The notes under the pieces were generated by a model. It ran no database searches and was not told the origin of the DNA. It saw nothing but the letters and a program-made list of their open reading frames with translations. Of a stretch of DNA of 64,000 bases, positions 15,863-46,430 are shown in pieces. The DNA comes from Rhodococcus pseudokoreensis (lineage in GTDB: Bacteria; Actinomycetota; Actinomycetes; Mycobacteriales; Mycobacteriaceae), in NCBI RefSeq assembly GCF_017068395.1, contig NZ_CP070619.1, forward strand, positions 4,092,001 to 4,156,000, given 5' to 3'. The stretch's first letter is position 1, and every line of letters begins with the position of its first letter. A program made the translations under genes and the position numbers.

Positions 15863-15909
15863 GCGAGACCACCGAACCAGTTTGCACTGCACGGCTATTC
15901 GAAATCTTA

Positions 15910-26772: not shown

Positions 26773-27861
26773 TCAGGCCAGATCGCCGAGCGCTTCGACG
26801 GATTTCCAATCGACAGCGGCGGCGCAGTTGCGCCGCAGCAGCGCAAGAATCAGCTGGTTCACCACATCGTTGTCGGGGAGAACCGCGACCGCGGCGAGGG
26901 TGACGTAGAGACCGCTGAGCAGCTGGATCCGGTAGTCGGCCGTCGCCTGATCCTCGTCGTACCCGGAGGATTTCTCCGCGAACACGTCGATGTACGTCTT
27001 CAGCAATCGCGTTTCGTGTAGTCGGCGTTCGGCGATGTCGACACTGCCCGACATGAAGTACGCGAAGTCGTACATCGGATTGCGCAAGCCGGTGAACTGC
27101 CAATCCAGGAGCACGGCCGACACTCCCGCGCCCGACTTCTCGAAGAGAACATTGTCGACGCGGGGGTCGCCGTGGGTGAGTGTCAGATGCTGCTGCGGCA
27201 GGCCATACCAGGTGCGAACCAGGGCGACGGCATCGCGAATCGCGGCCAGGAAGTCCGGCGGAAGGTCGTCGGTGAACCGCGTGAGCGCGGCCGCGGCCCC
27301 GCGCTCCGCCGCATCGCACCAGTAGTCGGAGACCTCGGACATGCGCACCAACCACGCGGGCGCTGCCTCATCGGTCAGCGGAAAGAAGCTGGAGTGCAGG
27401 CGAGCGAGTTCCGCGACAAGGGATTCCGCCTCGGCCACGCCACAACCGGCGGCCTGATTGCCGGGCGTCGTCGTTGCCGTCAAGTCTTCCAGGACGAGGT
27501 TGATGTTCGTCTCGTCGCCGGCCACCCAGTAGCACTGCGGAATTCGGCAAGCCTGTCGGCCGCCGACTTCCCGGTAGGCACCGATCTCGCGGTGGTATGC
27601 GCCGCTCCGCAGTCCGTGCTCGTGCGCACCCGGCGCGCTCGGGCGGAATTTCACCACGACCGCGGCCGGGGAATCGGATTCGGCGCGGGCATACTCGATG
27701 CCGATTCGTACCGTGTCGCTCACGTTGCCGGCGCCGATGGGCTGCGCCGAAATCGATGCGACCTCCACCCCGGTGTGGCCTGCGTGCCGCAGCACGGACT
27801 GCACCCATGCGGTGTCGATCTCGGTGGCGACGTCGAGCACTCTGGGAGTCGGGTGATTCAT
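26773..27861 (-). CDS. Phosphotransferase of the APH/EcKinase-like fold, last gene of operon
   Basis: A 362-residue kinase-like protein. The catalytic loop is THGDPRVDNVLF (about residue 224) and the metal-binding segment LLDWQFTGLRNPMYDFAYFM lies about 25 residues later; these match the Brenner motif and DxD-like aspartate of aminoglycoside/choline/ecdysteroid-type kinases. A nucleotide-binding part is visible as AAVVVKFRPS near residue 74. Such kinases transfer ATP phosphate to hydroxyls of small molecules. ATG 27861 overlaps the stop of the upstream NTF2-like gene (ATGA). It shares about the same length and plan as the kinase at 29285-30379, so it is probably a paralogue acting on a related substrate. 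Confidence 0.8.
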   Translation of the reverse strand: MNHPTPRVLDVATEIDTAWVQSVLRHAGHTGVEVASISAQPIGAGNVSDTVRIGIEYARAESDSPAAVVVKFRPSAPGAHEHGLRSGAYHREIGAYREVGGRQACRIPQCYWVAGDETNINLVLEDLTATTTPGNQAAGCGVAEAESLVAELARLHSSFFPLTDEAAPAWLVRMSEVSDYWCDAAERGAAAALTRFTDDLPPDFLAAIRDAVALVRTWYGLPQQHLTLTHGDPRVDNVLFEKSGAGVSAVLLDWQFTGLRNPMYDFAYFMSGSVDIAERRLHETRLLKTYIDVFAEKSSGYDEDQATADYRIQLLSGLYVTLAAVAVLPDNDVVNQLILALLRRNCAAAVDWKSVEALGDLA

Positions 27862-28211
27862 GACCAGGACCCTTCGAAGTAGTTGGAGTTCCACACATCC
27901 GTGATGAGTCCCGCGGTCGCCTTGAAGACCTCGATTCCGCAGAGCCGCTCTCCGGTGGACAGGCGGATCGCGTTCCACGTCAGCGTCGCGAACTCCTCGT
28001 TGCCGGAGAGGTTGGCCACCTCGAAGGTCGGTTGATTCGACGCCAGGTCGGCGCGAATGCGCTCGACTTGCTGATTTCGGCTGAGCGCGACGGTGTTACC
28101 CGCTTCGTGTCGAATGACCGGGTCGCCGCATATTTCGTGGACGAGTTCGACTCGTTGCTTGTTGTAGATCTCGAACACATATTGTTCGACGAGTTCGACG
28201 GGGGTTCTCAT
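27858..28211 (-). CDS. SnoaL/NTF2-like small protein
   Basis: A 117-residue cone-fold protein: VELVEQYVFEIYNKQRVELV at the start, FATLTWNAIRLSTGERLCGIEVFKAT in separate strands, and a final SNYFEGSW. Members are ligand-binding isomerases, hydrolases or subunits. Start and stop codons both overlap neighbours (ATGA at 28208-28211 and 27858-27861), so it is tightly coupled to the LLM oxidoreductase before it and the kinase after it. It probably helps process the substrate of this operon; no active-site assignment is possible. Confidence 0.7.
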   Translation of the reverse strand: MRTPVELVEQYVFEIYNKQRVELVHEICGDPVIRHEAGNTVALSRNQQVERIRADLASNQPTFEVANLSGNEEFATLTWNAIRLSTGERLCGIEVFKATAGLITDVWNSNYFEGSWS

Positions 28212-29245
28212 CGCAGACTCCTGTACGCCTCGACGACCGGTTCGAGTTCCGCCGGCGTCGAGCAGTGCATGATCACGCCGTCGACTCCCAGATCGAGTTG
28301 GGCAGAGACCTTTTTCGCGCAGGCCTCGGCTGATCCTGTGGCGGCTGCTTCGAGCCACTCGGCGGGCAGCACTGTGCCGATGTGTTCGATCTCGGACGGG
28401 GTTGCCACCGCGTCGCACCAGCCGTTCAATCCGGCGACCACCGGATCTTCTCGAAACCGCTGGAGCGCGTCGGGGTCCCAGTTGTTCGTCTTCACCATCA
28501 GATCCCCGTACACCTGCAGGTAGGTGGCGAGTCTGGCCACGGTCTTCTTCAGCTGCAGTTCGATGGGAAGGTGATCGGGAACCGTTGCGTAGCAAGACCA
28601 CACCTTGACCGCGGCGGGGTCACGGCCGGCCTTCTCCGCGGCGCTGCGGACCGCGTTCACACACCGCACGACGGTGTCGTCCGAGAAGTACGTGTGCAGA
28701 ACGACAACGTCCGCGGCTCGACCCGCCAGGGCTAGGGTCGCGGGCCCGAACGCGGTCAGCCCGATCGGAATGTTCTCGTCGAATGTCGAGTCGAGGCGCA
28801 GTGTCGGATAGTTTCCGGCCGGGCCGCTGTGACCCTCGACGGTCTCGCCCTTCCACAATCGGCGCATCAGACCGATGAAATCCTCCAGTTGCGCGGTGGT
28901 GACGGGCGGGAGGCCGAACGCCTTCAGTTGCGGTGCCAGACCACGACCGAGCCCGAGGACGAAGCGGCCGTTCGTCAGCCGGTGCATCGTCGTCGCCCAC
29001 GCTGCTGTCACCATCGGGTGGCGGGTGTTGTGGTTGGTCGCAGCAGTGGCGATGTTCAGGCGTTCGGTCACCGCGCCGGCCGCGCCCGTCAGCGACCCGA
29101 GTTCCTTGACGTTGAATCGTTCGGAGAAGAACGCGGTGCCCAGGCCGAGTCGCTCGGCCAGTGCCAGTTCGCCGTACATCTCTCGGGGCGACTCGACGTG
29201 TCCGCCGAGTGCGTAGAAGCCCAGTTCAGGCATCGAATCGTTCAC
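28208..29245 (-). CDS. LLM-class (probable F420-dependent) oxidoreductase
   Basis: A 345-residue TIM-barrel flavin/F420 oxidoreductase. Typical segments: GFYALGGHVESPREM, ERLGLGTAFFSERFN, GLGRGLAPQLKAFGLPP and ADVVVLHTYFSDD. The overall pattern fits the TIGR03857-like F420 group common in mycobacteria and rhodococci; I cannot distinguish F420 from FMN without modelling. It is the third gene of the leftward operon, overlapping the NTF2-like gene by ATGA, and would carry out the redox step on the operon's substrate. Confidence 0.8.
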   Translation of the reverse strand: MNDSMPELGFYALGGHVESPREMYGELALAERLGLGTAFFSERFNVKELGSLTGAAGAVTERLNIATAATNHNTRHPMVTAAWATTMHRLTNGRFVLGLGRGLAPQLKAFGLPPVTTAQLEDFIGLMRRLWKGETVEGHSGPAGNYPTLRLDSTFDENIPIGLTAFGPATLALAGRAADVVVLHTYFSDDTVVRCVNAVRSAAEKAGRDPAAVKVWSCYATVPDHLPIELQLKKTVARLATYLQVYGDLMVKTNNWDPDALQRFREDPVVAGLNGWCDAVATPSEIEHIGTVLPAEWLEAAATGSAEACAKKVSAQLDLGVDGVIMHCSTPAELEPVVEAYRSLR

Positions 29246-29284: not shown

Positions 29285-30379
29285 CTACCCACGGTTCACC
29301 GCTGCGAGTGGGTGGATCCCGATGTGGCGGGCGCCGTCACGGTCCCGTGCATGTGTCAGGGAGTTGGTGACCATGGACAGAAACAGCTCGTCACCACGCT
29401 CGGTCCGTTCCACCAGCATCGCAGCCGCAACCCCGATGATGAAGTTGTGGAAGGTCGCGCACGCATAGTCCTGGACGAGACGTTCGAACGGATAGCCGTC
29501 GACCCCGAGGTCGACGAGTTCCGAGTGGTAGTGGCGGAGTAGTTCGTCCTCGTTCGCTCGACGCGTCGTGGCGTCCAGTGCACCACCGATGAAGTAGGCG
29601 ACATCGACCACGCCCGGTGCGTACACCACTGTCTGCCAGTCCAATACGACGAGCGGCACTTCCCCGCCGCGCGCGTCGAACAGCACGTTGTCGGGCCGGT
29701 AGTCGCCGTGCTGGACGGTGTAGGGCATCCCCTCCAGTGCCTGGTAGTAGCCGGCGATGTTGTCGACGAATTCCTGCCCCAGTGCAGTGTCGGCCTCGCT
29801 GAGCCGGCCGGCGTAGCGCTGACGAAATCCGTCGTACCATTCGGGCATCATCTCGGCGAATCGCTGCCAGTAGCTCGACGAGATGTCCATCCACGGGTTG
29901 CCTCTGAGTTCTTCCGAACCCCAGTAGGGTGCGTGGATCCGTGCTGCCTGCTCGACGGCGAGTCGCGTTTCGGCCACCGTGCAGCCGGTCAGCTGGTTTC
30001 CGGGACGTGCGGGAGTGAGATCCTCCAGGAGGAGGACGAATTCGGTATTGTTCGTATCAATTTCGGCGTGGAAGCAGGCCGGGACGCGGACCTGGAGGTG
30101 CGGCGCGATCTCGGTGTAGAAGCCGACCTCACGGGCGTAGTTGAGCTCGCTGCGTCCGGCCGCGCGACTCTGCTCGCTGTCGGAAGTCAGTTTCGCGACG
30201 AGCGACTCGGGGCCGCCGCCACCGTCGGAGTACGAGATCGTGATCTGATAACTGTCGGCGACCAGGCCGGTGCCGATCGGTTCGATTGCGGTGCCGGTCA
30301 CCCGGTTGCCGGGGGCGAGTATCCCCCTGTCGTGCAACAGTCGATCCAGCCAGCCCGCGCAAATATCAGCTGCGTGCAA
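29285..30379 (-). CDS. Phosphotransferase of the APH/EcKinase-like fold
   Basis: A 364-residue kinase-like protein with VQHGDYRPDNVLF (catalytic loop) and VVLDWQTVVYAPGVVDVAYFI (metal site), plus SLVAKLTSD for ATP binding. It parallels the kinase at 26773-27861 in length and motif spacing. Known relatives include choline/ethanolamine kinases, ecdysteroid 22-kinases and LvaA, which phosphorylates a hydroxyacyl-CoA during levulinate breakdown. It follows the PEP-synthase-like gene by 25 bp in the same operon. The substrate is unknown; the operon setting suggests a hydroxylated catabolic intermediate. Confidence 0.8.
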   Translation of the reverse strand: MHAADICAGWLDRLLHDRGILAPGNRVTGTAIEPIGTGLVADSYQITISYSDGGGGPESLVAKLTSDSEQSRAAGRSELNYAREVGFYTEIAPHLQVRVPACFHAEIDTNNTEFVLLLEDLTPARPGNQLTGCTVAETRLAVEQAARIHAPYWGSEELRGNPWMDISSSYWQRFAEMMPEWYDGFRQRYAGRLSEADTALGQEFVDNIAGYYQALEGMPYTVQHGDYRPDNVLFDARGGEVPLVVLDWQTVVYAPGVVDVAYFIGGALDATTRRANEDELLRHYHSELVDLGVDGYPFERLVQDYACATFHNFIIGVAAAMLVERTERGDELFLSMVTNSLTHARDRDGARHIGIHPLAAVNRG

Positions 30380-30404: not shown

Positions 30405-32144
30405 TCAGATCTCGAGCACCGTCACGGCGCCGGTCGTGCCGTCGACCTCGACGAGTGCGCCGTTCGGGATGCGCTTGGTCGCGTCGGTGGCCGAGACGAT
30501 GCACGGGATACCGATTTCCCGGCTGACGATCGCGGCGTGTGAGAACGGGGCTCCGACGTCGACGACCACCGCGGAGGCGGCGACGAACAGCGGCGTCCAG
30601 GACGGGTCGGTGATCGGGGCGATGAGGATCTCCCCGGGCTCGAGGGCGGAGGGGTCGTCGGGGGTGGTCAGGACCCGGGCGATGCCCCGGGCGGTGCCGG
30701 TGCAGCCGGACACGCCGACCAGAGTCTCGCCCGCGGCCAGCGCAGCGCCGGCGGCGCCCGCGCGCAGCGGCCAGTCCTCGAGCGGCGGCACTTCGCCGGA
30801 GACGACGAACGGCGGTTTGACGTCGAAGAGTGCGCGGTAGCTCTTTTCCCGCTCGCGCACGATGTCGGTGAACGCCGAGGGATCGGCCAGGTAGGCGTCG
30901 AGTTCGTCGGCGAAGAGCATGAAGATCTGCTCGACGCTGTCCAGCGCTCCTGCCTCGACGCCGCGGCGGCCGAGCTCGCGTGCCGGAAGCCGGATTTCGT
31001 GAATCACCATGGCTGCCGTGGTACGGGCGCGTTCGCGGCCGCGGAGCCAGAGAGCGGCGGCGGCGAGGGTGGCCTCGAACTGGGCGGAGGTCTCGGGATC
31101 TTCCGCGAGAAGCTGGCGGACCATGGAAGCGGCGGCCTCGCGTTCCTCACTTCGGATGGCGCCCTTGCCTTCCGGTGCCTCGTCGTCGCCGACCTGCCGC
31201 ATGCGGTCGACGGTGGCCAGCGCCAGTTCCGGTTTGACACCCCACGTCTGGGCGCGGATCTCCCATTCCGCCGGGCCGCGGAAGTCCCAGTCCGACAGGA
31301 AGGCGTCGAGATCGGCGCGGAACGCGGTGACCGCCGGGTCGGTGCTCGCCGCCAGCCGGTCGTAGAGGCCGGGGACGCCCTCGTCGAACACGGCGGCCAC
31401 AGCCGGATCCTGGGCGGCGCGGCTGAGGGTCCACATCCGCTTGGAGGGTCCGGTGGAGTCGACGTCGCCGATGCCGCCGACCAGGGTGAGGGCAAGCTCG
31501 GGCCTGCCGACCGCGGCGGCGATCTGCGCGACGGCCCCCAGCCCCACGCCCGATTTGAGGCTGGCCTCGATGTGGTGCTTGAACAGCGGCCGCAGGATGT
31601 AGTCGAAGGAGGTGATGCGCTCGCGCAACTGCTGATCGGTCAACGCGGTCATGTCGGGCCGGTCGGCGCGGATGCGCACCACGTCCTGACGGTCGGCGTC
31701 GTACTCGGGCAGTCCGGTGGCACCGATGACCTCCTCGACCAGCCAGCCGCCGGCGCGCTCCGCGAACTCCGGGTTCTCGTCGAAGTCCCGCTTCTCGCTC
31801 TCGTAGCTGGGAATGCCGGGCATGTCGCCGAAGTACTGCAGGTCGACGGCTTCCGGCGACATCCCCGGCACGCGGACGCCGAACAGCCGCATCAGCGACA
31901 TGTTGATGTACAGGTAGCTGCCGAAGGCCGGGAGGATGTTGTAGTCGACCGTGGCGTCGTAGAGGTCGTGATCCCAGACCTTGCATGCGACGAAGGCGTC
32001 CCGCCAGCCCGGTTCGAGATTGTGCTGGAAGCCGGCGGAGGCGTTCAACGGACTGATCGGGTCGGGAAAGATCTCCCCGACGTTCGCGCGGGAGTACAGG
32101 GGAAACACCTTCGACACAGTGTCGTTGATGGGCCACTCAGCCAT
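30405..32144 (-). CDS. PEP-synthase/rifampin-phosphotransferase-like protein: middle and phospho-His domains, no ATP-grasp
   Basis: A 579-residue protein. The C-terminal ~90 residues are the swivelling phospho-histidine domain of PEP-utilising enzymes, with H536 in GAPFSHAAIVSREIGIPC. The N-terminal ~480 residues are not an ATP-grasp; the start YSRANVGEIFPDPISPLNAS resembles the substrate-binding middle domain of rifampin phosphotransferase. It therefore cannot take phosphate from ATP alone. In phenylphosphate synthase of Thauera the ATP-grasp and His parts are also on separate proteins. ATG 32144 is chosen; the frame is open to 32165. It is the first gene of the leftward operon, divergent from surE, and partner candidates are the kinases downstream or the PPDK-like protein at 39069. 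Confidence 0.8.
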   Translation of the reverse strand: MAEWPINDTVSKVFPLYSRANVGEIFPDPISPLNASAGFQHNLEPGWRDAFVACKVWDHDLYDATVDYNILPAFGSYLYINMSLMRLFGVRVPGMSPEAVDLQYFGDMPGIPSYESEKRDFDENPEFAERAGGWLVEEVIGATGLPEYDADRQDVVRIRADRPDMTALTDQQLRERITSFDYILRPLFKHHIEASLKSGVGLGAVAQIAAAVGRPELALTLVGGIGDVDSTGPSKRMWTLSRAAQDPAVAAVFDEGVPGLYDRLAASTDPAVTAFRADLDAFLSDWDFRGPAEWEIRAQTWGVKPELALATVDRMRQVGDDEAPEGKGAIRSEEREAAASMVRQLLAEDPETSAQFEATLAAAALWLRGRERARTTAAMVIHEIRLPARELGRRGVEAGALDSVEQIFMLFADELDAYLADPSAFTDIVREREKSYRALFDVKPPFVVSGEVPPLEDWPLRAGAAGAALAAGETLVGVSGCTGTARGIARVLTTPDDPSALEPGEILIAPITDPSWTPLFVAASAVVVDVGAPFSHAAIVSREIGIPCIVSATDATKRIPNGALVEVDGTTGAVTVLEI

Positions 32145-32412: not shown

Positions 32413-33198
32413 ATGCGCATTTTGGTCACCAACGACGACGGCATCGACGCACCCGGACTGCATGCGGTGGCGACAGCTCTGGCAACCGAGGGGTACGAGA
32501 TCACCATCGCCGCGCCGCGCGGCGAGTGCAGCGGCAGCGGCTCGTCACTGGGCACCCTCGAGCACGGAGCGGAGATCGCGTACACGGAGCGCCGCTTCGA
32601 GCATCTGCCTGGAGTGCAGGCGCTCAGCTTCGACGCCCCGCCTGCATTTGCGGTGTTCGCGGCGTGTGCGGGGGTGTTCGGTGCTCCACCGGACCTGGTC
32701 GTCAGCGGCATCAATCCGGGCCCGAACACCGGCCGGATGATTCTGAATTCGAGCACGGTGGCGGCCGCACTGACCGCGTCGACCCTCGGCGTCCGCGGTC
32801 TCGCCGTCAGCTGCGGGTTTCCGCCGGAGCACCGTTTCGATACCGCCGGCCGGATCGCAGTGTCGGCGGCACAGTGGATGCTCGCCCACAGCGCCCACCG
32901 TGCCGTGCTGAACGTCAATGTGCCCGATCTCGACATCAGTGAGGTCAAGGGTGTGCGGATGGCACCGCTGGCACCGCGCGGACTGCTCGGCTTGACCTTC
33001 GACAAGACCCCGGACACGGTGCGGCTGTTGCGATTCGCCAATACCGAACGTCTCGGCACCGGAACCGACTCCGCTCTCGTGCGTGACGGCTATGTGTCGA
33101 TCAGCGCCATCTCGGCCGTGGCGGCCAACTCCGAGGGCTCGGGCGTCGCGGCGCACGTCGAGGCGTGCCTGCCGTTCCCGGTGGCCTCCGAGTCCTAG
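32413..33198 (+). CDS. surE: SurE-family 5'/3'-nucleotidase (phosphatase)
   Basis: A 261-residue metal-dependent phosphatase. The N-terminal NDDG motif (D8, D9) in ILVTNDDGIDAPG, the segment CSGSGSS near residue 38 and SGINPGPNTG near residue 97 form the SurE active site. ATG 32413 has AAGGAG about 9 nt upstream. SurE enzymes hydrolyse nucleoside monophosphates or short polyphosphate. Here the gene is divergent from an operon with three phosphoryl-transfer proteins, so it may instead remove phosphate from a pathway intermediate; that is inference. A perfect hairpin follows. Confidence 0.88.
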   Translation: MRILVTNDDGIDAPGLHAVATALATEGYEITIAAPRGECSGSGSSLGTLEHGAEIAYTERRFEHLPGVQALSFDAPPAFAVFAACAGVFGAPPDLVVSGINPGPNTGRMILNSSTVAAALTASTLGVRGLAVSCGFPPEHRFDTAGRIAVSAAQWMLAHSAHRAVLNVNVPDLDISEVKGVRMAPLAPRGLLGLTFDKTPDTVRLLRFANTERLGTGTDSALVRDGYVSISAISAVAANSEGSGVAAHVEACLPFPVASES

Positions 33199-33291: not shown

Positions 33292-33924
33292 TCAGCCTTC
33301 GTCGGCGGCGCCCCGGGTCCGCCCGGCGCTGAGGATGAGGTCTTCGTGCAGTTCCATCCAGATGTCGTGGTAGCTGTCGTACATCGGCCGCGCGAACGAG
33401 GCGTTGTCACCGCCACGGATGCGACCCAGCGCCGCGGAGAGGCGCGGCAGATAGCGACCGAACCGCGGCAACGCATCGACCAGTTCCGGGAGCGACGCCC
33501 GCAGTCGCTCATCGGTCTGCGCCAGCGCGCCGACGACCTCGCCGTCGTAGGTCGGGTCGCCGTGATCGTTGGGGGTGTCGTCGCTGCGCATCTGCCAGCG
33601 CTGACACACCATCTTGAAGTCGGAATTGATCGGCAGGAAACGGTCGTAGAACGCTGTCAGCGCGGTGGCCGCGCCGGTGGTGGCCGGATCCTGTGCGAGT
33701 AGCCGCAGATGCTCGGCCTTGCCCGCAGGGGTCAGCATCGCTCCCGGCATCCGGCCCTCCCGGCGCACCACCAGGCCCTGCTCGACGAGCGGATCCAGGG
33801 CTGCCGGCAGGTCCTCGACCGGCACGCCCGACAGCGCGCTGAGCACGTTGTCGTTGGCCAGTCCCTTCACGCGGAGCGAATGCAGGACGTCGAAGGTGTG
33901 TTGATCTTGCTGGGCGTGAACCAT
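33292..33924 (-). CDS. Winged-helix protein, possible regulator
   Basis: A 210-residue protein. The first ~70 residues form a winged helix (HTFDVLHSLRVKGLAND, LSALSGVPVEDLPAALDPLVEQGLVVRREG in parts, PAGKAEHLRLL). The rest is helical and aromatic-rich (LTAFYDRFLPINSDFK, QRWQMRSD), without a clear family. It may sense a ligand or another protein. The ATG follows CAGGAG. It lies just downstream of the acyl-CoA synthetase gene (60-bp gap) on the same strand, so it probably belongs to that unit and may control the TGTGA sites around it. Confidence 0.6.
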   Translation of the reverse strand: MVHAQQDQHTFDVLHSLRVKGLANDNVLSALSGVPVEDLPAALDPLVEQGLVVRREGRMPGAMLTPAGKAEHLRLLAQDPATTGAATALTAFYDRFLPINSDFKMVCQRWQMRSDDTPNDHGDPTYDGEVVGALAQTDERLRASLPELVDALPRFGRYLPRLSAALGRIRGGDNASFARPMYDSYHDIWMELHEDLILSAGRTRGAADEG

Positions 33925-33984: not shown

Positions 33985-35493
33985 TCAGGAAGTCGCGAAA
34001 TAGTGCGAGCGCAGGGCCTTCTTGTTGAGTTTCCCGGTGGGCAGCCGCGGCAGGCGGTCGACGAAGTCGATCGAGCGGGGCGCTTTGAAGGTCGCCAGGC
34101 AGCCGCGGCAGTAGTCGATGAGGCCGGCGGCGGTGGTGGCGTCACCCGATACACCCTCGCGCAATTCCACCATCGCCTTGACCTGTTCCCCGAATTCGGG
34201 GTCGGGGATGCCGAAGACCGCGGCGTCGACGACATCGGGATGACGCACCAGGGCGGCCTCGATCTCCTCGGGGTAGATGTTGACCCCGCCGGAGATGATC
34301 ATGAAGCTTTCCCGCCCGGCGAGGTAGAGAAATCCGTCCTCGTCGAGGTAGCCGCGGTCGCCCATGCTCTTCCAGCCGGCAGTCGCGGCGGTGTCCCCGG
34401 CATTGACGTAGGCGGTGGCGGCCGGCGGTTGAAACCAGACCTTGCCGATCTCCCCCGGCGGCACCGGGGTCCCCGCATCGTCGGTGACGTGCACGCGGGT
34501 GCCGCCGAGAGGTCGGCCGACCGACCCGGGGTGGTCGGCGGATTCGACGGCGGAGATGTAGGTGTGCCCGTAGCCCTCGGAGGCGCCGTAGTACTCGTGC
34601 AGGACCGGCCCCCACCACGCGTTGATCTGCTCCTTGACCTCCACCGGGCAGGGCGCGCCGGACGTGACGGCGGTAGTGTGCGTCGGCGACAGCGCGATGG
34701 TGTCCCTGTCGGGCAGGGCGAGGATGCGCAGCAGCATCGTCGGCACCCACTGCGAGTGAGTGACCCCGTGCGTGGCGATCGCCGTCATGGCCGCGGACGC
34801 GTCGAAGCGTTCCATACATACGACCGTGCCGCCGGCGGCCATCGTCATCAGCTGGAAGGTGAACGGCGCCGCGTGGTAGTTCGGCGCGGGCGAGAGCAAC
34901 ACCGTGTCCGAGTCGATGCCGAGTTTCTCGGCGAGACCCGCGTGGCGCGTCGGGGCGTCCGCGGGATGGATGTCCAGCAATTTCTGCCGGAACGCCTTCG
35001 GGCGGCCGGTGGTGCCGCCGCTGTAGAGGACGCGGGCGCCGAAGCGTTCGTCCGCGATGGGCGTCCTCGGGTGGTCCGCGATCGCCGTGGCGAGGTGCTC
35101 GAATTCGGGAGCTGGATCGGTGCACAGGGTCAGCGCGGTGTGCCTGCCCGGAAGGGCGGCAGCGACCGCTCCGGCGAGCGAGCCGCTGGTGACCACCGCG
35201 GCCGGCGCCGCTTCGGCGAGGAGCGCGGCGAGTTCGTCGGCGCCGAGGTGCCAGTTCACTGGTGTGACATACAGGCCCGCACGCATTCCGGCCGCGACCA
35301 CCACCGGCCATTCGATCCGGTTCTCCATCACCAGGACGATGGAATCGCCTGCTGCCACGGCCCTGCTGCGCAGGAGATGGGCGAGCTGGTTGGACTGCTC
35401 GTCCAGCTGCCGGTAGGTGAGCGAAGTACCGGAGGCGGCCATCACGAACGCGAGAGAATCGGGATGCTCGGCGGCGATTGAGGGTGGGTACAC
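33985..35493 (-). CDS. Acyl-CoA synthetase (AMP-forming)
   Basis: A 502-residue ANL-family ligase that activates a carboxylic acid via acyl-AMP to acyl-CoA. Motifs: YSGGTTGRPKAFRQ (phosphate loop), YYGASEGYGHTYI (A5), MGDRGYLDEDG (A7), FMIISGGVNIYPEEIE (A8) and the catalytic lysine in LPTGKLNKK (A10) near the C-terminus. The start is GTG 35493 after AGAGG. A TGTGA-N8-TCACT motif lies 13-30 bp upstream. Divergent from the P450 operon, it would CoA-activate the acid made by the P450, aldehyde dehydrogenase and SDR. The acid is unknown. Confidence 0.9.
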   Translation of the reverse strand: MYPPSIAAEHPDSLAFVMAASGTSLTYRQLDEQSNQLAHLLRSRAVAAGDSIVLVMENRIEWPVVVAAGMRAGLYVTPVNWHLGADELAALLAEAAPAAVVTSGSLAGAVAAALPGRHTALTLCTDPAPEFEHLATAIADHPRTPIADERFGARVLYSGGTTGRPKAFRQKLLDIHPADAPTRHAGLAEKLGIDSDTVLLSPAPNYHAAPFTFQLMTMAAGGTVVCMERFDASAAMTAIATHGVTHSQWVPTMLLRILALPDRDTIALSPTHTTAVTSGAPCPVEVKEQINAWWGPVLHEYYGASEGYGHTYISAVESADHPGSVGRPLGGTRVHVTDDAGTPVPPGEIGKVWFQPPAATAYVNAGDTAATAGWKSMGDRGYLDEDGFLYLAGRESFMIISGGVNIYPEEIEAALVRHPDVVDAAVFGIPDPEFGEQVKAMVELREGVSGDATTAAGLIDYCRGCLATFKAPRSIDFVDRLPRLPTGKLNKKALRSHYFATS

Positions 35494-35643: not shown

Positions 35644-36846
35644 ATGACCACCAGCAGTGGTATCGACCTGATGGACCTGCGGGCATTCGCCTCCGGATAC
35701 GCGGACGAGATCTTCGCGCAACTGCGCAACGAGGACCCTCTGCACTGGAACGACGAACCGAACGGCCCGGGATTCTGGTCGGTGACTCGATACGCCGACG
35801 TCAAAGCCGTTGCCGCGGACCACGACACGTTCACCGTCACCGAGGGGACGCAGATCGCGAGCAGGCGCGCCGAAGGCGAAGGCGCCCGCAGCATTCATCA
35901 CGTCGACCCACCGGAGCACGGTCCGCTACGCAAGATCGTCACCCCGCACGTGCGCCCGGCCAAGGTGAAGGCCCTCGTCCCGGACATCGAGGCGGTGATC
36001 GACGACCTGCTGGACAAGGCCGTCGGCGCGGGGCCGATCGACCTGGTCGCGAACATCTCCGCCCAACTGCCCCTGGTGATGATCGGCCGACTGCTCGGCG
36101 CCCCGCTCGAGGACTGCCCGAACCTGCTGCGGTGGACGAACCAGATGGCGTCGGAGGACCCCGACTACTCCGCGGGCCCCGAGACCGCCGTGCATGCCCG
36201 CGACGAGGTGTTCGCCTACTTCCGGGCCCTCGAGACCGAGCGTCGCGCCTGCCCGGCCGACGACCTGGTCAGCGTGCTGACCGCCGCCGAACTCGACGGC
36301 GTCCCGCTCAGCCGCGGCTACCTCGACGCCTACTACCTGATCCTGATGGTCGCCGGGAACGAAACCACCCGGAACCTGCTGTCCGGCGGTGTGCTCGCCC
36401 TGCACGAGAACCCGCAATGGTGGGACCTTCTGCGCGAGAATCCGGGCAAGATCCGCTCCGCGGTCGAGGAGATGGTGCGCTGGGTGTCGCCGGTGCTGTC
36501 GATGCGGCGCACCGCCACCCGGGACGTCGAGATGCACGGCAAGACCGTGAAGGCCGGCGACAAGGTCGTCATGTGGTTCTGCTCGGCGAACCGGGACGAG
36601 CGGGTGTTCGAGGACCCGAACACGTTCCGGGCCGACCGATTCCCGAACGAACACCTGGGTTTCGGGTGGGGCGATCACGCCTGCCTCGGCGCCAACCTCG
36701 CCCGCCTCGAGGCGAAACTGTTCTTCACCAAGCTCGTCGAACGCGGCATCGGCATCGACGTGGTCGATTCCCCGAAGCGTTTGCAGAGCAACTTCTTCCG
36801 CGGCATCAAGACCCTCCCCGTGCGATTGGAGCCGCGCAATGGCTGA
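35644..36846 (+). CDS. Cytochrome P450, first gene of catabolic operon
   Basis: A 400-residue P450. AGNETT (237-242) is the I-helix motif with the less common Asn, E276-R279 is the ExxR and C347 in FGWGDHACLGANL is the heme ligand. ATG 35644 is preceded by GGGAG at about 10 nt; a GTG at 35596 lies in the operator. Its stop overlaps the aldehyde dehydrogenase start by 8 bp. The operon (P450, aldehyde dehydrogenase, SDR, PPDK-like) plus the ferredoxin reductase at 41427 suggests hydroxylation of a hydrophobic compound followed by oxidation to an acid. The substrate cannot be predicted. Confidence 0.93.
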   Translation: MTTSSGIDLMDLRAFASGYADEIFAQLRNEDPLHWNDEPNGPGFWSVTRYADVKAVAADHDTFTVTEGTQIASRRAEGEGARSIHHVDPPEHGPLRKIVTPHVRPAKVKALVPDIEAVIDDLLDKAVGAGPIDLVANISAQLPLVMIGRLLGAPLEDCPNLLRWTNQMASEDPDYSAGPETAVHARDEVFAYFRALETERRACPADDLVSVLTAAELDGVPLSRGYLDAYYLILMVAGNETTRNLLSGGVLALHENPQWWDLLRENPGKIRSAVEEMVRWVSPVLSMRRTATRDVEMHGKTVKAGDKVVMWFCSANRDERVFEDPNTFRADRFPNEHLGFGWGDHACLGANLARLEAKLFFTKLVERGIGIDVVDSPKRLQSNFFRGIKTLPVRLEPRNG

Positions 36847-38269
36847 CACCTTCGACCGGGCCGGCTGCCTGATCGACGGCGCATGGTTCCTCCCGGACGG
36901 GCCGGCGATCGACGTGATCGACCCCTACACCGAGACCGTGATCGGCGAAGTCGTCGATGCCGGGGAACGGATCGTCGACGACGCCGTCCGCTCGGCGGCG
37001 GCCGCTCATGCGGCGTGGCGGGACACCGACGTCTCCGAGCGCGCCGCACTGCTCGATCGGACCGCGGATCTGCTCACCCGTGACGGCGCGGCGATCGCGG
37101 CACTGGTCAGCCGCGAAATGGGAATGCCGATCTCGCTCGCCGAGGTCACCCAGGCCCAGCTCCCTGCCGACGTCTTGCGGGCCACCGCCCGCACCGCCCG
37201 CGACTTCCCGTGGTCGCAGGACATCGACGGGGCCACGCTGGTCCGGCGCGGCAGCGGGGTCGTCGGCGCGATCACGCCGTGGAACATGCCGGTCCACCAG
37301 ATCGTCGCCAAGGTCTCGGCCGCACTGGCGGCCGGTTCGACCGTGGTGCTGAAGGCGTCGGAGATGACCCCGTACGACGCGAACGCGCTCGCCGCGCTGT
37401 TCCTCGAGGCGGGACTTCCGGCCGGGGTGTTCAACGTCGTGACCGGGACCGGTGCGGTCACCGGGGCGGCGCTGGCCGCGCACCCGGGCCTCGCGCACGT
37501 CTCGTTCACCGGCAGCGTCGTGGCCGGCCGCGCGGTTGCCTCCCTGGCGGCGCAGACGTTGACCCGCTGCACCCTCGAACTCGGCGGCAAGTCACCTGCC
37601 GTGGTGCTGCCGGACGCGGACCTCGAGACCGCACTCACCGGGGTCGTCGCCTCCGGTCTGGTCAACTCCGGTCAGGCGTGCAACGCCACCACCCGGCTGC
37701 TGCTCCCCGAGGCGCTCGCCGCCGATGCCGCCGACGTGCTCACCGCGGCGGTCGCCCGGCACACCCTCGGTGACCCCGCCGACCCGCAGACCCGGCAGGG
37801 CCCGCTCGTCTCGGCCCGCCAACGTGACCGGGTCCTCGACTACATCGCCGACGCCGTCGCCGCGGGCGGGCATCTGCTCACCGGCACCGGCAAACCGTCC
37901 GAGGTGTCCCCGACCGGATTCTTCGTCGACCCCACCATCGTCACCGGACTGCCCGAGGACGCCCGGGCGATCCGCGAGGAAATCTTCGGCCCCGTCGTCG
38001 CGGTGCAGACCTACACCGACGTCGACGACGCGGTCCGGATCGCCAACGACTGCGCGTACGGGTTGTCGGCGGAGGTGTGGTCCGGCGACGTCGAACGCGC
38101 CCGCGCCGTGGCCGGACGGCTCGACGTCGGTCAGGTCAAGATCAACGGCGTCCGCACTCGCAATCGGCCCACAGTTCCCTTCGGTGGCGTCAAGAATTCC
38201 GGCTACGGCCGCGAACTCGGTCACCTCGGCATCGAGGAGTTCACCGACGTGACGGCGGTAATGTCATGA
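36839..38269 (+). CDS. NAD(P)-dependent aldehyde dehydrogenase
   Basis: A 476-residue ALDH. Catalytic C281 in NSGQACNATTR and general base E247 in CTLELGGKSPAVV are present, with TPWNMP (about 146-151) and FTGSVVAG (about 223-230) for the cofactor. The start ATG overlaps the P450 stop; its own stop overlaps the SDR start (ATGA). It would oxidise the aldehyde formed from the P450/alcohol-dehydrogenase steps to a carboxylic acid for CoA activation. Confidence 0.93.
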   Translation: MADTFDRAGCLIDGAWFLPDGPAIDVIDPYTETVIGEVVDAGERIVDDAVRSAAAAHAAWRDTDVSERAALLDRTADLLTRDGAAIAALVSREMGMPISLAEVTQAQLPADVLRATARTARDFPWSQDIDGATLVRRGSGVVGAITPWNMPVHQIVAKVSAALAAGSTVVLKASEMTPYDANALAALFLEAGLPAGVFNVVTGTGAVTGAALAAHPGLAHVSFTGSVVAGRAVASLAAQTLTRCTLELGGKSPAVVLPDADLETALTGVVASGLVNSGQACNATTRLLLPEALAADAADVLTAAVARHTLGDPADPQTRQGPLVSARQRDRVLDYIADAVAAGGHLLTGTGKPSEVSPTGFFVDPTIVTGLPEDARAIREEIFGPVVAVQTYTDVDDAVRIANDCAYGLSAEVWSGDVERARAVAGRLDVGQVKINGVRTRNRPTVPFGGVKNSGYGRELGHLGIEEFTDVTAVMS

Positions 38270-39072
38270 CCGGCAACACTTTCAGTGGAAACATCGTCGT
38301 CACCGGGGCGGCCTCGGGGATCGGTCTCGCGCTCGCCGACCAGTTGAGTGCGGCCGGCGCCACGGTCTACGCCCTCGACCGGCGCGACTGCCCGATCGGG
38401 TCGGTGCGGACCCTGCTGTGCGACTTCTCCGATCCCGGATCGATCAGCGACGCCGTCGCGGCCCTCCCCGGCGAGGTCACCGGGCTGGCCAATGTCGCCG
38501 GTGTTCCGGGCACCGCTGCCGCGCAGACGGTGCTGGCGGTCAACCTCCTCGGGCCGCGCCTGCTCACCGAACTCGTGCTCCCCCGCATGACCGAGGGAGC
38601 GGCGATCGTCAACGTCGCCTCCGTCGCCGCGTACCGCAACACCGAATCCCCGGAGTCGATCGACGCACTGCTGCGGGTCCGCAACCGCGCGGACCTGCAG
38701 GCCTGGCTGCGTGACCACCCTGTGAAGGGGCCCGCCGCCTACGACACCTCCAAACGCGCCCTCGTCGACTGGACGCAACTGCTGTCGGCGAAGCTGACGG
38801 CACGCGGCATCCGGGCGCTGTCGGTCAGTCCCGGACCGGTCGAGACACCGATCCTCGCCGACTTCGAAGCCAGCATGGGCGCCGACGCGATGGCACGATC
38901 CCACGACGCGGTCGGCAGGCACGGCTACCCTCACGAGATCGGCGCGGTCGTCGCGTTCGCCCTCTCTCCCGCCGCGTCCTGGCTCAACGGCATCGACATC
39001 CCGGTCGAAGGTGGCCTGTTCGCCACCCGTGCGGCCGCCAAATCCCCTGTTTTCGAAGGACTCTCGCTATGA
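38266..39072 (+). CDS. Short-chain dehydrogenase/reductase
   Basis: A 268-residue SDR. TGAASGIG (13-20) binds NAD(P); the catalytic Y159 and K163 are in AAYDTSK, and the serine is about S119 in NVASVAAY. The stretch between Ser and Tyr is long (about 40 residues), as in 3-alpha-hydroxysteroid dehydrogenase/carbonyl reductase of Comamonas. ATG 38266 overlaps the ALDH stop and its own stop overlaps the next ATG, so the operon is tightly coupled. It would oxidise an alcohol or reduce a ketone in the pathway. Confidence 0.9.
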   Translation: MTGNTFSGNIVVTGAASGIGLALADQLSAAGATVYALDRRDCPIGSVRTLLCDFSDPGSISDAVAALPGEVTGLANVAGVPGTAAAQTVLAVNLLGPRLLTELVLPRMTEGAAIVNVASVAAYRNTESPESIDALLRVRNRADLQAWLRDHPVKGPAAYDTSKRALVDWTQLLSAKLTARGIRALSVSPGPVETPILADFEASMGADAMARSHDAVGRHGYPHEIGAVVAFALSPAASWLNGIDIPVEGGLFATRAAAKSPVFEGLSL

Positions 39073-40565
39073 CCTCCTCCAGTAGCCCGGCCGAGCACGT
39101 CATCACGCTCGACGGCACCCATCCCAGCACCCGCGAGGTACTCGGCGGCAAGGCGTACAGCGTCAACAAGATGCGGGCGATGGGACTGCCGGTCCCCCCG
39201 GCGTTCGCGCTGCCCACCGGTGTCTGCGCGGTCTACCACGACAACGGCCGATCGCTGCCGGACGAGATCTGGCAGCAGGTCCTCGAACACCTGCGACGGC
39301 TCGAGGCGGAGACCGGCCGCCGGTTCGGCGCCGGTCCGTCCCCGCTGCTGGTCTCCGTTCGGTCCGGCGCCGCGCAGTCCATGCCGGGCATGATGGACAC
39401 CGTCCTCAACCTCGGCCTGACCCCCGAACTGTGTGAGGCGCTGGCCGCCGAGACCGGTGATCAGCGGTGGGCGACCGACACCTGGGAGCGGTTCTGTCAC
39501 AGTTACGCCGACATCGTCGCCGGGGACCCGAATGCCGCGCCGCCGAGCGATCCGTTCGCGCAGTTGCGATCGGCGATCGGCGCCGTCTTCGACTCCTGGA
39601 CCAACGAGCGTGTCAAGGCGTACCGAGCCCGGCACAACCTCGGCGCCGGCGCCGGAACCGCAGTCACCGTGCAGGCCATGGTGTTCGGCAACCGCGACGA
39701 GCGGTCCGGGACCGGGGTGATGTTCAGCCGGGATCCCGCGACCGGCGAGAACACCCTCTACGGCGAATGGCTGGCGAAGGCGCAGGGTGAGGACGTCGTG
39801 TCCGGGGAGAAGACCCCGAATCCCCTCGCCACCGTCGGCGACATCCTGCCCGACGTGTACCCGGAACTCGAGCGCATCGCCGAGGTCCTCGAACGTGAGC
39901 ACCGCGATCTGGTCGACATCGAGTTCACCGTCGAAAGCGGCCGGCTGTACGTCCTGCAATGCCGGGCCGGGAAGCGTGCGCCGCGCGCCGCGGTCCGGAT
40001 CGCCGTCGATCTCGTCCGCGAAGGTCTCATCACGGCCGACGACGCGGTCTCCCGCGTCTCCGCCGAGCAGGCCGCGAGCCTGGCGAAAACGCACGCGGTG
40101 CACGCCGACCGGACGGTCCTGGCCGGTGGCCTCGGCGCCGGCCCCGGTGTCGCCGTCGGGCAGGCCGTCAGCGACCTCGACCAGGCCCTCGACCTCGCCG
40201 CGGCCGGCACACCGGTCGTCCTGGTACGTCCCTCCACCGCCCCGGACGACGTGCCCGCGATGTTCGAATCGGTCGCCGTCGTCACCGAACTCGGCGGCAG
40301 CACCTCCCACGCGGCGCTGGTGTGCCGGGAGATCGGGCTGCCGTGCGTCGTCGGCGCCGGAGTCGGCACCGTCGCGAAACTGACCGGGCTGACGGTGACC
40401 GTCGACGGCGCCACCGGCACGGTCTACGAGGGCGACGCCCTGCACACCCCGGACGAGGGCGACGTCGACGAGTACCTCACCGAACTCCTCGGCTACCTGC
40501 CCGACACCGTCCCGGTGGATCATCCGCTCGCCCAGTTGCGCTCTGCGCACCTGGAACGGGCATAA
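39069..40565 (+). CDS. PPDK-like protein: ATP-grasp and phospho-His domains only
   Basis: A 498-residue protein resembling the N-terminal part of pyruvate phosphate dikinase. ATP-grasp features are GGKAYSVNKM (about 27-36), SVRSGAAQSMPGMMDT (about 96-111), DIEFTVESGRLYVLQCR (about 283-299). The phospho-histidine is H414 in GGSTSHAALVCRE. The usual PPDK continues for about 350 more residues with the PEP/pyruvate barrel; here the protein stops after the His domain. Its ATG overlaps the SDR stop. It should accept phosphate from ATP on H414 but needs another protein or a small molecule as final acceptor. Confidence 0.88.
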   Translation: MTSSSSPAEHVITLDGTHPSTREVLGGKAYSVNKMRAMGLPVPPAFALPTGVCAVYHDNGRSLPDEIWQQVLEHLRRLEAETGRRFGAGPSPLLVSVRSGAAQSMPGMMDTVLNLGLTPELCEALAAETGDQRWATDTWERFCHSYADIVAGDPNAAPPSDPFAQLRSAIGAVFDSWTNERVKAYRARHNLGAGAGTAVTVQAMVFGNRDERSGTGVMFSRDPATGENTLYGEWLAKAQGEDVVSGEKTPNPLATVGDILPDVYPELERIAEVLEREHRDLVDIEFTVESGRLYVLQCRAGKRAPRAAVRIAVDLVREGLITADDAVSRVSAEQAASLAKTHAVHADRTVLAGGLGAGPGVAVGQAVSDLDQALDLAAAGTPVVLVRPSTAPDDVPAMFESVAVVTELGGSTSHAALVCREIGLPCVVGAGVGTVAKLTGLTVTVDGATGTVYEGDALHTPDEGDVDEYLTELLGYLPDTVPVDHPLAQLRSAHLERA

Positions 40566-40642: not shown

Positions 40643-41350
40643 ATGACCACACAGCGCCAGGTCCCACCGCGCACGCTCGACGACGTCTACACCCATGTCG
40701 GCCTCGTCGAACCCGGTGCGGCCACCCCCAAACGGCCCAACCGCCGTGGGGAGCTCACCCGGGAACGCATCGTGCAGGCCGCGATCGAATGCTTCAGCGA
40801 ATACGGGTACACCCGCACCCGGGTCTCGGACATCACCCACCGCGCGAAGACCGCGCAGGGCAACTTCTACCGGCACTTCACCGACCTGGACGACGTGTTC
40901 CTCGCCGCCATGCACACCGGGCTCCAGGAGTTGTCCGAGGCCACCAGCCGCAAGACCACGACCAGCGGCGAACTCGAAGCGCTGATCGAGGTCAACATCA
41001 CCTACCTGCACGCCTACTCCCGGCACCGGCACATCCTGCGACTGCTGCGTGAAGCCGCTGCCGCCAGCGCCAACGAGGGTTTTCAGCAGTTGTGGCTGCA
41101 ACTGCGTGACGACTTCATCGCACGCACCCGCCGCTGGCTGGAGAAGCTGCACGACCGCGGGGAGATCGGGGACACCAACCTCGACCTGCTTGCCGAGTCG
41201 CTCGGTTGCATGACCGAGCAGATGGCCTACGTGCACGTCGGTCTCCCCGCCTCGACGCCCAAACGCGAACGCATCGACGAACTCGGCCGCGCCCTCGGTG
41301 AGGTCTGGTTCCGGGCACTGCCCCCGGCCGCGTCGCCCTCCCAGCACTGA
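40643..41350 (+). CDS. TetR-family transcriptional regulator
   Basis: A 235-residue TetR protein. After a 30-residue N-terminal extension comes the helix-turn-helix: TRERIVQAAIECFSEYGYTRTRVSDITHRAKTAQGNFYRHF in separate helices. The C-terminal ligand domain is helical and ends in a Pro/Ala-rich tail. ATG 40643 has a GGGGGCGGAG stretch upstream. ATCAGTGAT at about 40594-40602 is a small palindrome in its promoter. It lies between the P450 operon and the reductase gene and probably regulates one or both. Confidence 0.85.
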   Translation: MTTQRQVPPRTLDDVYTHVGLVEPGAATPKRPNRRGELTRERIVQAAIECFSEYGYTRTRVSDITHRAKTAQGNFYRHFTDLDDVFLAAMHTGLQELSEATSRKTTTSGELEALIEVNITYLHAYSRHRHILRLLREAAAASANEGFQQLWLQLRDDFIARTRRWLEKLHDRGEIGDTNLDLLAESLGCMTEQMAYVHVGLPASTPKRERIDELGRALGEVWFRALPPAASPSQH

Positions 41351-41426: not shown

Positions 41427-42470
41427 ATGACCTCCGTCGCACCCGATTCTCTCGGCTACACCGTCCGTGTCGCCGATGTCATCGCCGAGACACCCGACGC
41501 CTCCTCCCTCGTCATCGACGTCCCGCAGGAGATCGCCCACCAATTCGCGTATCGGCCCGGGCAATTCCTCACCGTCCGGATCCCCAGCGAACGCACCGGT
41601 TCGGTGGCGCGCTGCTACTCCATCGCCAGCTCCCCCAGCACGGACGACCGCATCAAGGTGACGGTCAAGCGCACCGCCGACGGGTACGGCTCGAACTGGC
41701 TGTGCGACAACATCACAGCAGGCGACGCCGTGCATGTGCTGCCGCCGTCGGGCACGTTCACCCCGCACAGTCTCGACGGCGACTTCCAGCTCTTCGCCGC
41801 CGGCAGCGGCGTCACCCCGGTGATGTCGATCCTCAAGACCGTGCTGGCGTCCGCGACCGGAACCGTGTCCATGTACTACGCCAACCGGGATCGCGAATCG
41901 ATCATCTTCGACGCCGAACTCGCCGACCTCGCCAAGAAACACGCGGACCGGCTCACCGTCGAGCACCGACTCGAGAGCGAGGCCGGGTTACCGACCCCGG
42001 ACAATCTCACCCAATTCGCCGACGGCGGCCAGGCCGGCACCGTCTTCGTCTGCGGACCCGCGCCCTTCATGGCCATGGTCAAGGAGACGCTGACCGGCAT
42101 CGGATACGACCGGCACCGGATTCACGTCGAGGAATTCCGCTCCCTCGACGGCGACCCCTTCGCGCCGATCAGGCAGGTCACCGCCGACGACGACGCCGAA
42201 ACGTCGACCGTGGACGTCACCCTGGACGGCGACACCCACACGCTGTCGTGGCCGGCCGACGCCACCCTGATCGACGTCATGGTGGGCGCCGGGATCGACG
42301 CCCCCTACTCCTGCCGCGAAGGCGAATGCGGATCCTGCGCCTGCACGCTCCTGGAGGGGACCGTCGATCCCGGGGTCACCGACGCCCTCGATCCCGACGA
42401 CGTCGCCGACGGCTACATCCTCGGCTGCCAGGCGAAGCCGACCAGTCCCACGCTGAAGATCGAATTCTAG
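41427..42470 (+). CDS. Ferredoxin-NAD(P)H reductase with C-terminal 2Fe-2S ferredoxin (KshB-like)
   Basis: A 347-residue one-chain electron-transfer protein. FAD motif RCYSIAS (62-68), NAD motif GSGVTP (126-131) and CGPAPF (209-214) are followed by a C-terminal plant-type ferredoxin with C296, C301, C304 and C334. This order (FAD, NAD, 2Fe-2S) is that of 3-ketosteroid 9-alpha-hydroxylase reductase KshB and PaaE-type reductases. Located after the P450 operon, it is the most likely electron donor for the P450 at 35644. It converges with a YCII-like gene. Confidence 0.92.
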   Translation: MTSVAPDSLGYTVRVADVIAETPDASSLVIDVPQEIAHQFAYRPGQFLTVRIPSERTGSVARCYSIASSPSTDDRIKVTVKRTADGYGSNWLCDNITAGDAVHVLPPSGTFTPHSLDGDFQLFAAGSGVTPVMSILKTVLASATGTVSMYYANRDRESIIFDAELADLAKKHADRLTVEHRLESEAGLPTPDNLTQFADGGQAGTVFVCGPAPFMAMVKETLTGIGYDRHRIHVEEFRSLDGDPFAPIRQVTADDDAETSTVDVTLDGDTHTLSWPADATLIDVMVGAGIDAPYSCREGECGSCACTLLEGTVDPGVTDALDPDDVADGYILGCQAKPTSPTLKIEF

Positions 42471-45024: not shown

Positions 45025-45939
45025 CTACGTGACGACGGTGAGGAAGTTCTGGTCCAGTTCCCGGTGGGTGAAGTTGATGCCCCGGGCGGCCTGATCCATG
45101 GTCCAGGTGATGGTCCGGAAGTCCTTGCCGGTGCGGTATCCGCCGGAGAACACTTCGTTGCGGTTGCCGGAGGGATCGAAGAAGTAGATCGTCTCGCCGC
45201 GGGTGATTCCGTGACGGGCAGGTCCGAAGTCGATGGGCACGTCGTCCATGGAGAAGACGTCGCCGGCGTGCAGCAGGGCCGACCAGTCGGCGATGTGGTA
45301 CGCGAAGTGGTGCAGTTTGCCGTTTTCGCCTTGGACGAAGGCGATGTCGTGGGGTTGTTCGCCGCAGAACATCCAGGATCCGACGAGTTCGGTGTTGTCT
45401 TCGCCTCCGACGAGGCGTTCGGCGGCCTGGAAGTCGAGGGCTTCGGAGAGGAACCGTTCCAGCAGTGCGGGGTCTTCGGTGGTGATGAGGGTGTGGTCGA
45501 GGCGCGGGACGCCGATGCCGCGGGTCCCGCCGCGAGGCCACGGGTCCGGGTTCCACAATCCTGTTGCGGTGCCCACGTACTCGATGTCGCTGTAGAGCTC
45601 GAGGGTGTGCTCGGACGGCAGGGTCACCCGCAGGCCGTCGCCGACGGACTGGTTGTCGCCCTTACTCATCCGCTCGCACGTCGCGCCGAACGCGCGTACC
45701 CGGGTCTCGATCTCGGCAAGCGAGTCTGCGTCGGAGACCTTGTAGCCGAGTTTGGTCAGCCCGACGCCGCCTTCGCTGAGGACGACCGAGTGATGGTCGG
45801 CCTCGTCCCAGGACTTGAGGTAGACGGTGCCGTCCTCTTCGTGGACGGCGTCCATTCCGAGGGTGTTGATGTAGTGGTTCTTGGCCTCGGCGAGGTCGGT
45901 GACGTTGATGTGGACATAGCCCAGTCGCAACACGGACAT
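45025..45939 (-). CDS. Extradiol catechol 2,3-dioxygenase
   Basis: A 304-residue type I two-domain extradiol dioxygenase. The iron ligands are H149 (in RLDHTLIT), H211 (in LHHFAYHI) and E262 (in NRNEVF), with conserved H243 and Y252 nearby. The length matches XylE/AphC-type enzymes. ATG 45939 has GGAAGG upstream. It opens a catechol next to the hydroxyls, making the yellow meta-cleavage product. The gene follows the ferredoxin gene, whose product may reduce its inactivated iron. Confidence 0.93.
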   Translation of the reverse strand: MSVLRLGYVHINVTDLAEAKNHYINTLGMDAVHEEDGTVYLKSWDEADHHSVVLSEGGVGLTKLGYKVSDADSLAEIETRVRAFGATCERMSKGDNQSVGDGLRVTLPSEHTLELYSDIEYVGTATGLWNPDPWPRGGTRGIGVPRLDHTLITTEDPALLERFLSEALDFQAAERLVGGEDNTELVGSWMFCGEQPHDIAFVQGENGKLHHFAYHIADWSALLHAGDVFSMDDVPIDFGPARHGITRGETIYFFDPSGNRNEVFSGGYRTGKDFRTITWTMDQAARGINFTHRELDQNFLTVVT

Positions 45940-45986
45940 GGCTGTACCTTCCTTCGATGTGGGTTGAATTGGTTCGCGGCCACCGA

Positions 45987-46376: not shown

Positions 46377-46430
46377 TGGTCCTCCTGAGCTGCCGCCGGT
46401 CCAAGAAGCTAGTCGGCCCCCGTCCGACGG

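Follow-up and report, generated by a model that had tools for sequence, protein, structure and literature searches.

The 64,000-nucleotide stretch of Rhodococcus pseudokoreensis DNA considered here (the window; contig NZ_CP070619.1, positions 4,092,001 to 4,156,000) encodes on its minus strand, at 30405..32144, an acceptor phosphotransferase that is referred to below as PEPu. PEPu probably forms one half of a small-molecule dikinase divided between two proteins, as the acceptor that would be charged by PpdK, a truncated pyruvate phosphate dikinase (PPDK) and proposed ATP-driven phosphoryl donor encoded 7 kb away on the plus strand (39069..40565), in a gene run of cytochrome P450, aldehyde dehydrogenase (ALDH), SDR alcohol dehydrogenase and PpdK. 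A histidine protein without an ATP-grasp domain is not new in itself, the split having already been published; the element that we believe, on balance, to be new is a truncated PPDK as the ATP half of such a dikinase.

PEPu is an acceptor component that consists of a substrate domain like that of rifampin phosphotransferase (RPH; about residues 1–465) and a C-terminal swivel domain (about residues 472–579) carrying His536, without an ATP-grasp. Its fold is that of RPH minus the ATP-grasp, with residues 318–867 of RPH-Lm as the counterpart, and its Arg370, Glu371 and His536 align with Arg666, Glu667 and His825 of RPH. RPH-Lm thus shares the fold, the Arg-Glu pair and the histidine, but differs in carrying an N-terminal ATP-grasp on the same chain. 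The Arg666-Glu667 pair is reported to be needed for the second transfer of RPH (PMC4844700). All three residues are kept in each of the 120 homologues listed, while in 31 more distant relatives that were aligned the histidine is kept throughout, Arg370 in 26 and Glu371 in 22. The initial annotation had described a mobile His domain (H536) and an RPH-like middle domain in a protein with nothing to bind ATP, and the fold and the aligned residues bear it out; an ATP-grasp hidden within residues 1–480 was considered and is excluded by the Pfam scan and by the fold itself. The sequence around the histidine, VDVGAPFSH, departs from the T/SxxGGxxxH motif described at the catalytic histidine of two-component dikinases (PMC12167813), with V where the motif has T/S and A for its second G. 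The best NCBIfam match of PEPu is PRK05865. In precomputed annotation PF27448 stands beside PF00391 in all 120 listed homologues; the Pfam copy used here gave no PF27448.

The closest published parallels are HpeHI (R. rhodochrous GD02), CreHI (C. glutamicum) and PpsAB (Thauera), which share the acceptor architecture and have the ATP half on another protein. In the available text of PMC12167813 these are two-component small-molecule dikinases, with the substrate and swivel domains on HpeH and the ATP-grasp on HpeI; HpeH is described there as RPH-like without an ATP-grasp, and its histidine as essential. The Hpe operon is reported to combine the kinase pair with a phosphatase and a CoA ligase (PMC9618137), a gene content that is repeated in the PEPu cluster. 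It is conceivable on these grounds that PEPu is an ordinary enzyme of this type whose HpeI-like ATP-grasp subunit is encoded elsewhere, particularly as HpeH shares its fold (PMC12167813) and as HpeI-type genes lie beside HpeH-type genes in Pseudonocardia, Actinomycetospora and Microbacterium genomes. Such an arrangement is nevertheless very unlikely here. No stand-alone HpeI-like ATP-grasp (about 340–360 aa, no swivel) occurs among the PPDK_N genes of this genome, and the same PPDK_N search recognised HpeI-type genes in other genomes as a positive control. In a tree that drew on 15 of the 33 rows of one alignment, with over-long frames cut to their last 440, 560 or 620 residues, the window type (100/100) and the five HpeI-linked proteins (100/99) fall into separate groups; the tree program warned that the grouping of Rv2047c-type with HpeI-linked rows might be spurious. 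PEPu is about 30% identical to four HpeI-linked relatives over 323–365 C-terminal residues and aligns with a fifth in the swivel only, these relatives having been used in the comparison and the tree in place of HpeH, CreH and PpsA themselves. Finally, in the draft genome of Nocardioides zeae all three PPDK_N matches fall inside the PpdK gene of the cluster, the only PPDK_N gene found there, so any PPDK_N-type ATP-grasp that charges PEPu in that organism should be PpdK.

PpdK corresponds to roughly the first half of PPDK. As judged from its sequence, it comprises an ATP-grasp and a swivel domain with His414, lacks the PEP/pyruvate domain, and is by this architecture a truncated PPDK of the VadK type. 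Its domains were assigned by sequence, as a structure model made without an alignment (pLDDT 37) was unusable and was not used. The residues that we take, from PPDK, to form its ATP site (K28, R98, E285, Q297 and R299) are kept together with the histidine in all 120 listed proteins of the family, one gap at K28 excepted. Both the window PpdK and a mycobacterial relative pass the NCBIfam PRK05878 cut-off. The initial annotation had compared PEPu with phenylphosphate synthase and had named the 39069..40565 product as a possible partner. The comparison holds for the split between ATP and His parts; it does not extend to the proposed ATP half, a truncated PPDK that carries a swivel His itself, where HpeHI, CreHI and PpsAB have an HpeI-type stand-alone ATP-grasp. 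The candidate itself is supported, at the level of sequence, by linkage and co-occurrence.

The remaining genes of the 9.87-Mb genome bear on two other ways of supplying the phosphoryl group or of using PpdK. PPDK_N occurs in five genes, namely PEP synthase, an 841-aa PPDK-like protein and three truncated PPDKs including the one in the window, while eight PEPu-type proteins (frames of 545–615 aa) have no PPDK_N match. PF02896 occurs in three genes, two with Enzyme I-size frames and the PEP synthase, the last being the only one of the five PPDK_N genes to carry it (the 841-aa protein has no match). Because PpdK is only the first half or so of PPDK, it could be imagined to join a separate pyruvate-binding protein in a split PPDK of central metabolism, with PEPu unrelated; none of the three PF02896 genes is near PpdK, the search lent no support to a free pyruvate domain, and this explanation is highly unlikely. 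PEPu could also be charged from phosphoenolpyruvate (PEP), either via Enzyme I and HPr of the sugar phosphotransferase system (PTS) or via PEP synthase. The genome has two genes with Enzyme I-size frames and a PEP synthase, and Enzyme I of B. subtilis is reported to phosphorylate rifampicin in vitro on its own (PMC13099321). Charging from PEP is still improbable, as the PF02896 genes lie far from PEPu, whereas PpdK is linked to it and co-occurs with it, co-occurrence having been scored for PpdK only.

Conservation of the cluster argues for PpdK as the partner. A scan of species genomes with the window-type PEPu gave 36 loci, 19 of which have 10 kb on both sides. Every one of these 19 carries PpdK, the P450, the SDR, the acyl-CoA ligase FadD and a MarR-like gene, and the other members are less regular (ALDH and TetR 16/19 each; SurE 13/19; LLM oxidoreductase and the kinase APH2 12/19 each; reductase 9/19), with the proviso that some genes may lie beyond the stretch examined. 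Over all 36 loci PpdK is found in 26, and nine of the ten loci without it end less than 8 kb from the acceptor on at least one side. Among the genera represented are Rhodococcus, Rhodococcoides, Nocardia, Gordonia and Aldersonia, and also from Nocardioides, Pseudonocardia, Actinomycetospora, Sinosporangium and Microbacterium. In Rhodococcoides fascians A44A, two of the three PPDK_N matches were listed; both are in the cluster PpdK, a gene that carries three PPDK_N stretches.

The pairing also recurs outside clusters of the window type. A second cluster in the same genome combines genes for a MarR-like protein, PpdK, FadD, a P450 and a reductase with one for a PEPu of only 25% identity. The frames of PpdK and PEPu overlap in G050, and in four presumed mycobacterial loci three acceptors surround one PpdK in the order acceptor, MarR-like, PpdK, acceptor, LLM, acceptor, with PpdK overlapping the next acceptor (by 4 bases in two of them); these overlaps were measured between longest frames. 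An LLM oxidoreductase gene lies between two acceptors in L093-L096, and an LLM gene is likewise found downstream of the acceptor in the window.

A possible further form of acceptor is the Rv2047c type, the C-terminal part of which is related to PEPu but which is fused to an NAD-dependent epimerase-type domain. An 852-aa example in L091 passes PRK05865, matches Epimerase and PF00391 but not PPDK_N, and has a polyketide synthase gene as its neighbor. Its co-occurrence with PpdK was counted in 148 genomes that we infer to be Mycobacterium, since in G155 a PRK05865-passing protein stands beside a polyketide synthase gene, as is reported of Rv2047c and pks12 in M. tuberculosis, and PpdK passes PRK05878. 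PpdK is present in 69 of them and the 852-aa type in 62; 58 genomes have both, 11 have PpdK only, 4 have the Rv2047c type only and 75 have neither (Fisher 8e-25, a figure weakened by its counting of related genomes as independent). Among the four exceptions, two lack PpdK, a weaker-scoring PpdK lies about 3 kb away in G224, and both genes have stops in G279. In this 3.3-Mb genome the internal stops in PpdK and the Rv2047c type look as if the two were decaying together. Each of the 11 genomes with PpdK alone also has acceptor matches of stand-alone size, as counted by frame length, and an acceptor lies less than 2 kb away, between match ends rather than gene ends, at 9 of their 13 PpdK loci. 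Six such stand-alone acceptors (three from G345 and one each from G247, G219 and G050) match Pfam PF00391 only. By comparison, a stand-alone-sized match was present in 2 (G216, G241) of 12 PpdK-less genomes of the set that were searched. A distant Rv2047c type (57–59%) lies 12–13 kb from a distant PpdK type in G239, G271, G259, G316 and G341.

Truncated PpdK was also found in 7 of 118 class-level genomes at E<=1e-85. A second search of 19 of these genomes (one already positive) at a lower cut-off added G089, G109 and G142, with G116 cut at a contig end; as 93 negative genomes were left out of it, the PpdK count is a lower bound. In all ten positive genomes PEPu-type matches are present, with frames whose size, the feature scored, fits an acceptor or the Rv2047c type.

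A close published counterpart of PpdK is VadK (Rv1127c) of M. tuberculosis, which is likened to it here by description (ATP-grasp, swivel His and no pyruvate domain) rather than by alignment. VadK is reported to be a truncated PPDK without the pyruvate domain that autophosphorylates His422, and it has been proposed to regulate the methylcitrate cycle, on whose flux it has an effect (PMC13400623). VadK was thus published as a regulatory histidine kinase, whereas the window PpdK is proposed as the donor for an acceptor enzyme. Carried over to the window, the published role would make PpdK a regulator of metabolic enzymes and a chance neighbor of PEPu, itself then a phospho-transferring regulator or a dead acceptor; the co-immunoprecipitation of VadK with PrpC and PrpD, together with the flux effect, speaks for this (PMC13400623). 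It is unlikely all the same, in that the pairing, with its overlapping frames, is seen again in several distinct clades, the acceptor-site residues are kept, and the annotated R. pyridinivorans locus, the one place where this was looked at, names no methylcitrate gene. In transposon sequencing of M. tuberculosis, the genes whose requirement rises with mycobactin are reported to include PpdK, Rv2047c and Pks12 (PMC7058343). Among the 20 papers listed of 1,237 in one literature search, PMC7058343 alone contained Rv2047c. Of the titles and abstracts that the literature searches listed, most subscription journals lying outside their reach, none describes a truncated PPDK paired with an RPH-like acceptor. 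We know of no paper that joins the autophosphorylation of VadK to the transposon result for PpdK and Rv2047c.

Several observations weigh against PEPu and PpdK as the two halves of one dikinase. Contact between the proteins, and transfer from one to the other, are deduced from architecture, residues, linkage and co-occurrence. PpdK has a swivel His of its own and HpeI has none, so the geometry must differ from that of HpeHI, and the Arg-Glu pair of PEPu is altered in some of the distant relatives counted above. Rv2047c is not among the co-immunoprecipitation partners of VadK given in the available text of PMC13400623, which are PrpC, PrpD and three more. One window-type locus, L028, has no PpdK within 8.4 and 8.6 kb on its two sides; PpdK is lacking in G252 and G294, which carry the Rv2047c type; and no truncated PpdK accompanies the full-length PEPu relative of G094. 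No acceptor was found less than 2 kb from PpdK at 4 of the 13 loci in PpdK-only genomes (G289, G305, G344 and one of G223), nor within about 10 kb of it in G138, G089, G109, G139, G155 and one of three G158 loci. Finally, SurE is absent from 6 and ALDH from 3 of the 19 two-sided loci, and the later pathway steps proposed below would therefore not be universal.

The genes around PEPu suggest a pathway in which such a dikinase might operate. On the plus strand, the P450 gene (35644..36846; start at 35644 or 35596) overlaps the ALDH gene (36839..38269) by 8 bases, and the SDR gene (38266..39072), whose product passes the cut-off of NCBIfam PRK12428, overlaps the ALDH and PpdK genes by 4 bases each. 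They are followed by a TetR-family regulator (40643..41350, plus) and by a reductase with FAD, NAD and 2Fe-2S domains (41427..42470, plus), the likely electron donor of the P450. A SurE-family phosphatase gene (32413..33198, plus) is divergent from PEPu, and FadD, an AMP-binding acyl-CoA ligase, is encoded at 33985..35493 on the minus strand. Downstream of PEPu on the minus strand lie genes for APH1 (29285..30379), an LLM F420-dependent oxidoreductase (28208..29245; TIGR03857 above cut-off), a small protein of 117 aa (27858..28211; SnoaL/NTF2-like by reading only, a slightly longer frame having no Pfam match) and APH2 (26773..27861). APH1 and APH2 resemble APH and ecdysteroid kinases (EcKL). 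The initial annotation had set PEPu at the head of an operon with two APH-fold kinases; both genes do belong to this family, but a role as the ATP half was rejected, both products matching the EcKL family near full length and APH2 occurring in 12 of the 19 clusters. They are probably enzymes separate from the PEPu system.

The MarR-like 210-aa protein (33292..33924, minus) takes its name from an R. pyridinivorans record and has no Pfam match. A MarR-like gene adjoins PpdK in L063, L064, L072, L075, L082-L086, L093-L099 and L101-L107 and was not seen beside it in L077, L079 and L080; mycobacterial PpdK loci share this neighbor with the window. A MarR-like gene is also found next to the gene for the 841-aa PPDK-like protein of this genome and, elsewhere in the same genome, next to one (L014 10189-10971) for a protein of 260 aa that includes a swivel-like domain (46% across about 107 residues). 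The MarR-like protein may be a partner of PPDK proteins rather than a plain repressor. On an R. pyridinivorans plasmid an annotated PorA-family porin gene (L009 15901-16293) lies between the acceptor and phosphotransferase genes. Elsewhere in the window are a 1006-aa catalase frame (15483-18503; catalase domain from residue 357, so the true start may be further in) and a 1087-aa protein with Ser/Thr kinase, NB-ARC, TPR and LuxR-type DNA-binding domains (55770-59033).

In the proposed mechanism, PpdK would bind ATP and become phosphorylated on its own histidine, as has been shown for VadK. The phosphoryl group would then pass to His536 of PEPu, either by direct action of the PpdK ATP-grasp or by a His-to-His relay; that a histidine is kept on both proteins speaks for the relay without proving it. 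In HpeH and RPH, phosphoryl transfer has been shown to depend on the swivel histidine. The swivel domain would carry the group to the RPH-like pocket, where Arg370 and Glu371, by analogy with RPH, would aid its transfer to the hydroxyl of a lipophilic small molecule. Judging from gene content and from the Hpe and Cre pathways, the phosphorylated substrate might next be oxidized by the P450 with its reductase, the SDR and ALDH, and then be dephosphorylated by SurE and converted to a CoA ester by FadD. The 4-cresol (Cre) pathway includes the P450 CreJ and the phosphatase CreD.

The initial annotation's proposal, phosphoryl transfer to a compound of the alcohol or phenol type, is retained, by analogy, as the likely kind of function, and the hints as to the substrate disagree. 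The best PDB matches of the P450, and its nearest solved structures, are CYP125 entries, several of them named steroid C26-monooxygenase, and CYP124, a methyl-branched lipid omega-hydroxylase. The SDR falls in a coniferyl-alcohol dehydrogenase subfamily model. Phenols, by contrast with the P450 matches, are suggested by HpaB-family monooxygenase genes at 7 of the 42 loci searched (six of the seven were scanned, all falling below the model cut-off) and by catechol 2,3-dioxygenase. The catechol 2,3-dioxygenase of the window passes its cut-off and lies with an HpaB-type monooxygenase at 45025-48179; together they may form an aromatic meta-cleavage set beside the cluster. We somewhat favor a phenol-type substrate over an aliphatic or terpenoid alcohol, and by analogy with the Cre pathway lean toward an alkylated phenol, with a terpenoid or sterol alcohol as the alternative.

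It is plausible, though rather less likely than not, that VadK-type truncated PPDKs are general ATP-driven donors that charge a family of RPH-like acceptors by His-to-His relay, at some loci with several acceptors to one donor, as in the four presumed mycobacterial loci above, and with VadK feeding Rv2047c among them. Such a system would be comparable to the sugar PTS, but branched, fed by ATP and directed at lipophilic hydroxyl compounds. VadK would then act on the substrate side, in addition to regulation or in its place, and there would be a concrete new hypothesis for two tuberculosis proteins, VadK and Rv2047c. If PpdK does charge PEPu, an ATP source would be named for a large actinobacterial family of "PEP-utilizing enzymes" without assigned function, and the retention of half a PPDK by many of these bacteria would be explained. 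It would also point to a conserved catabolic pathway of phosphorylation, oxidation and dephosphorylation across several actinobacterial genera.
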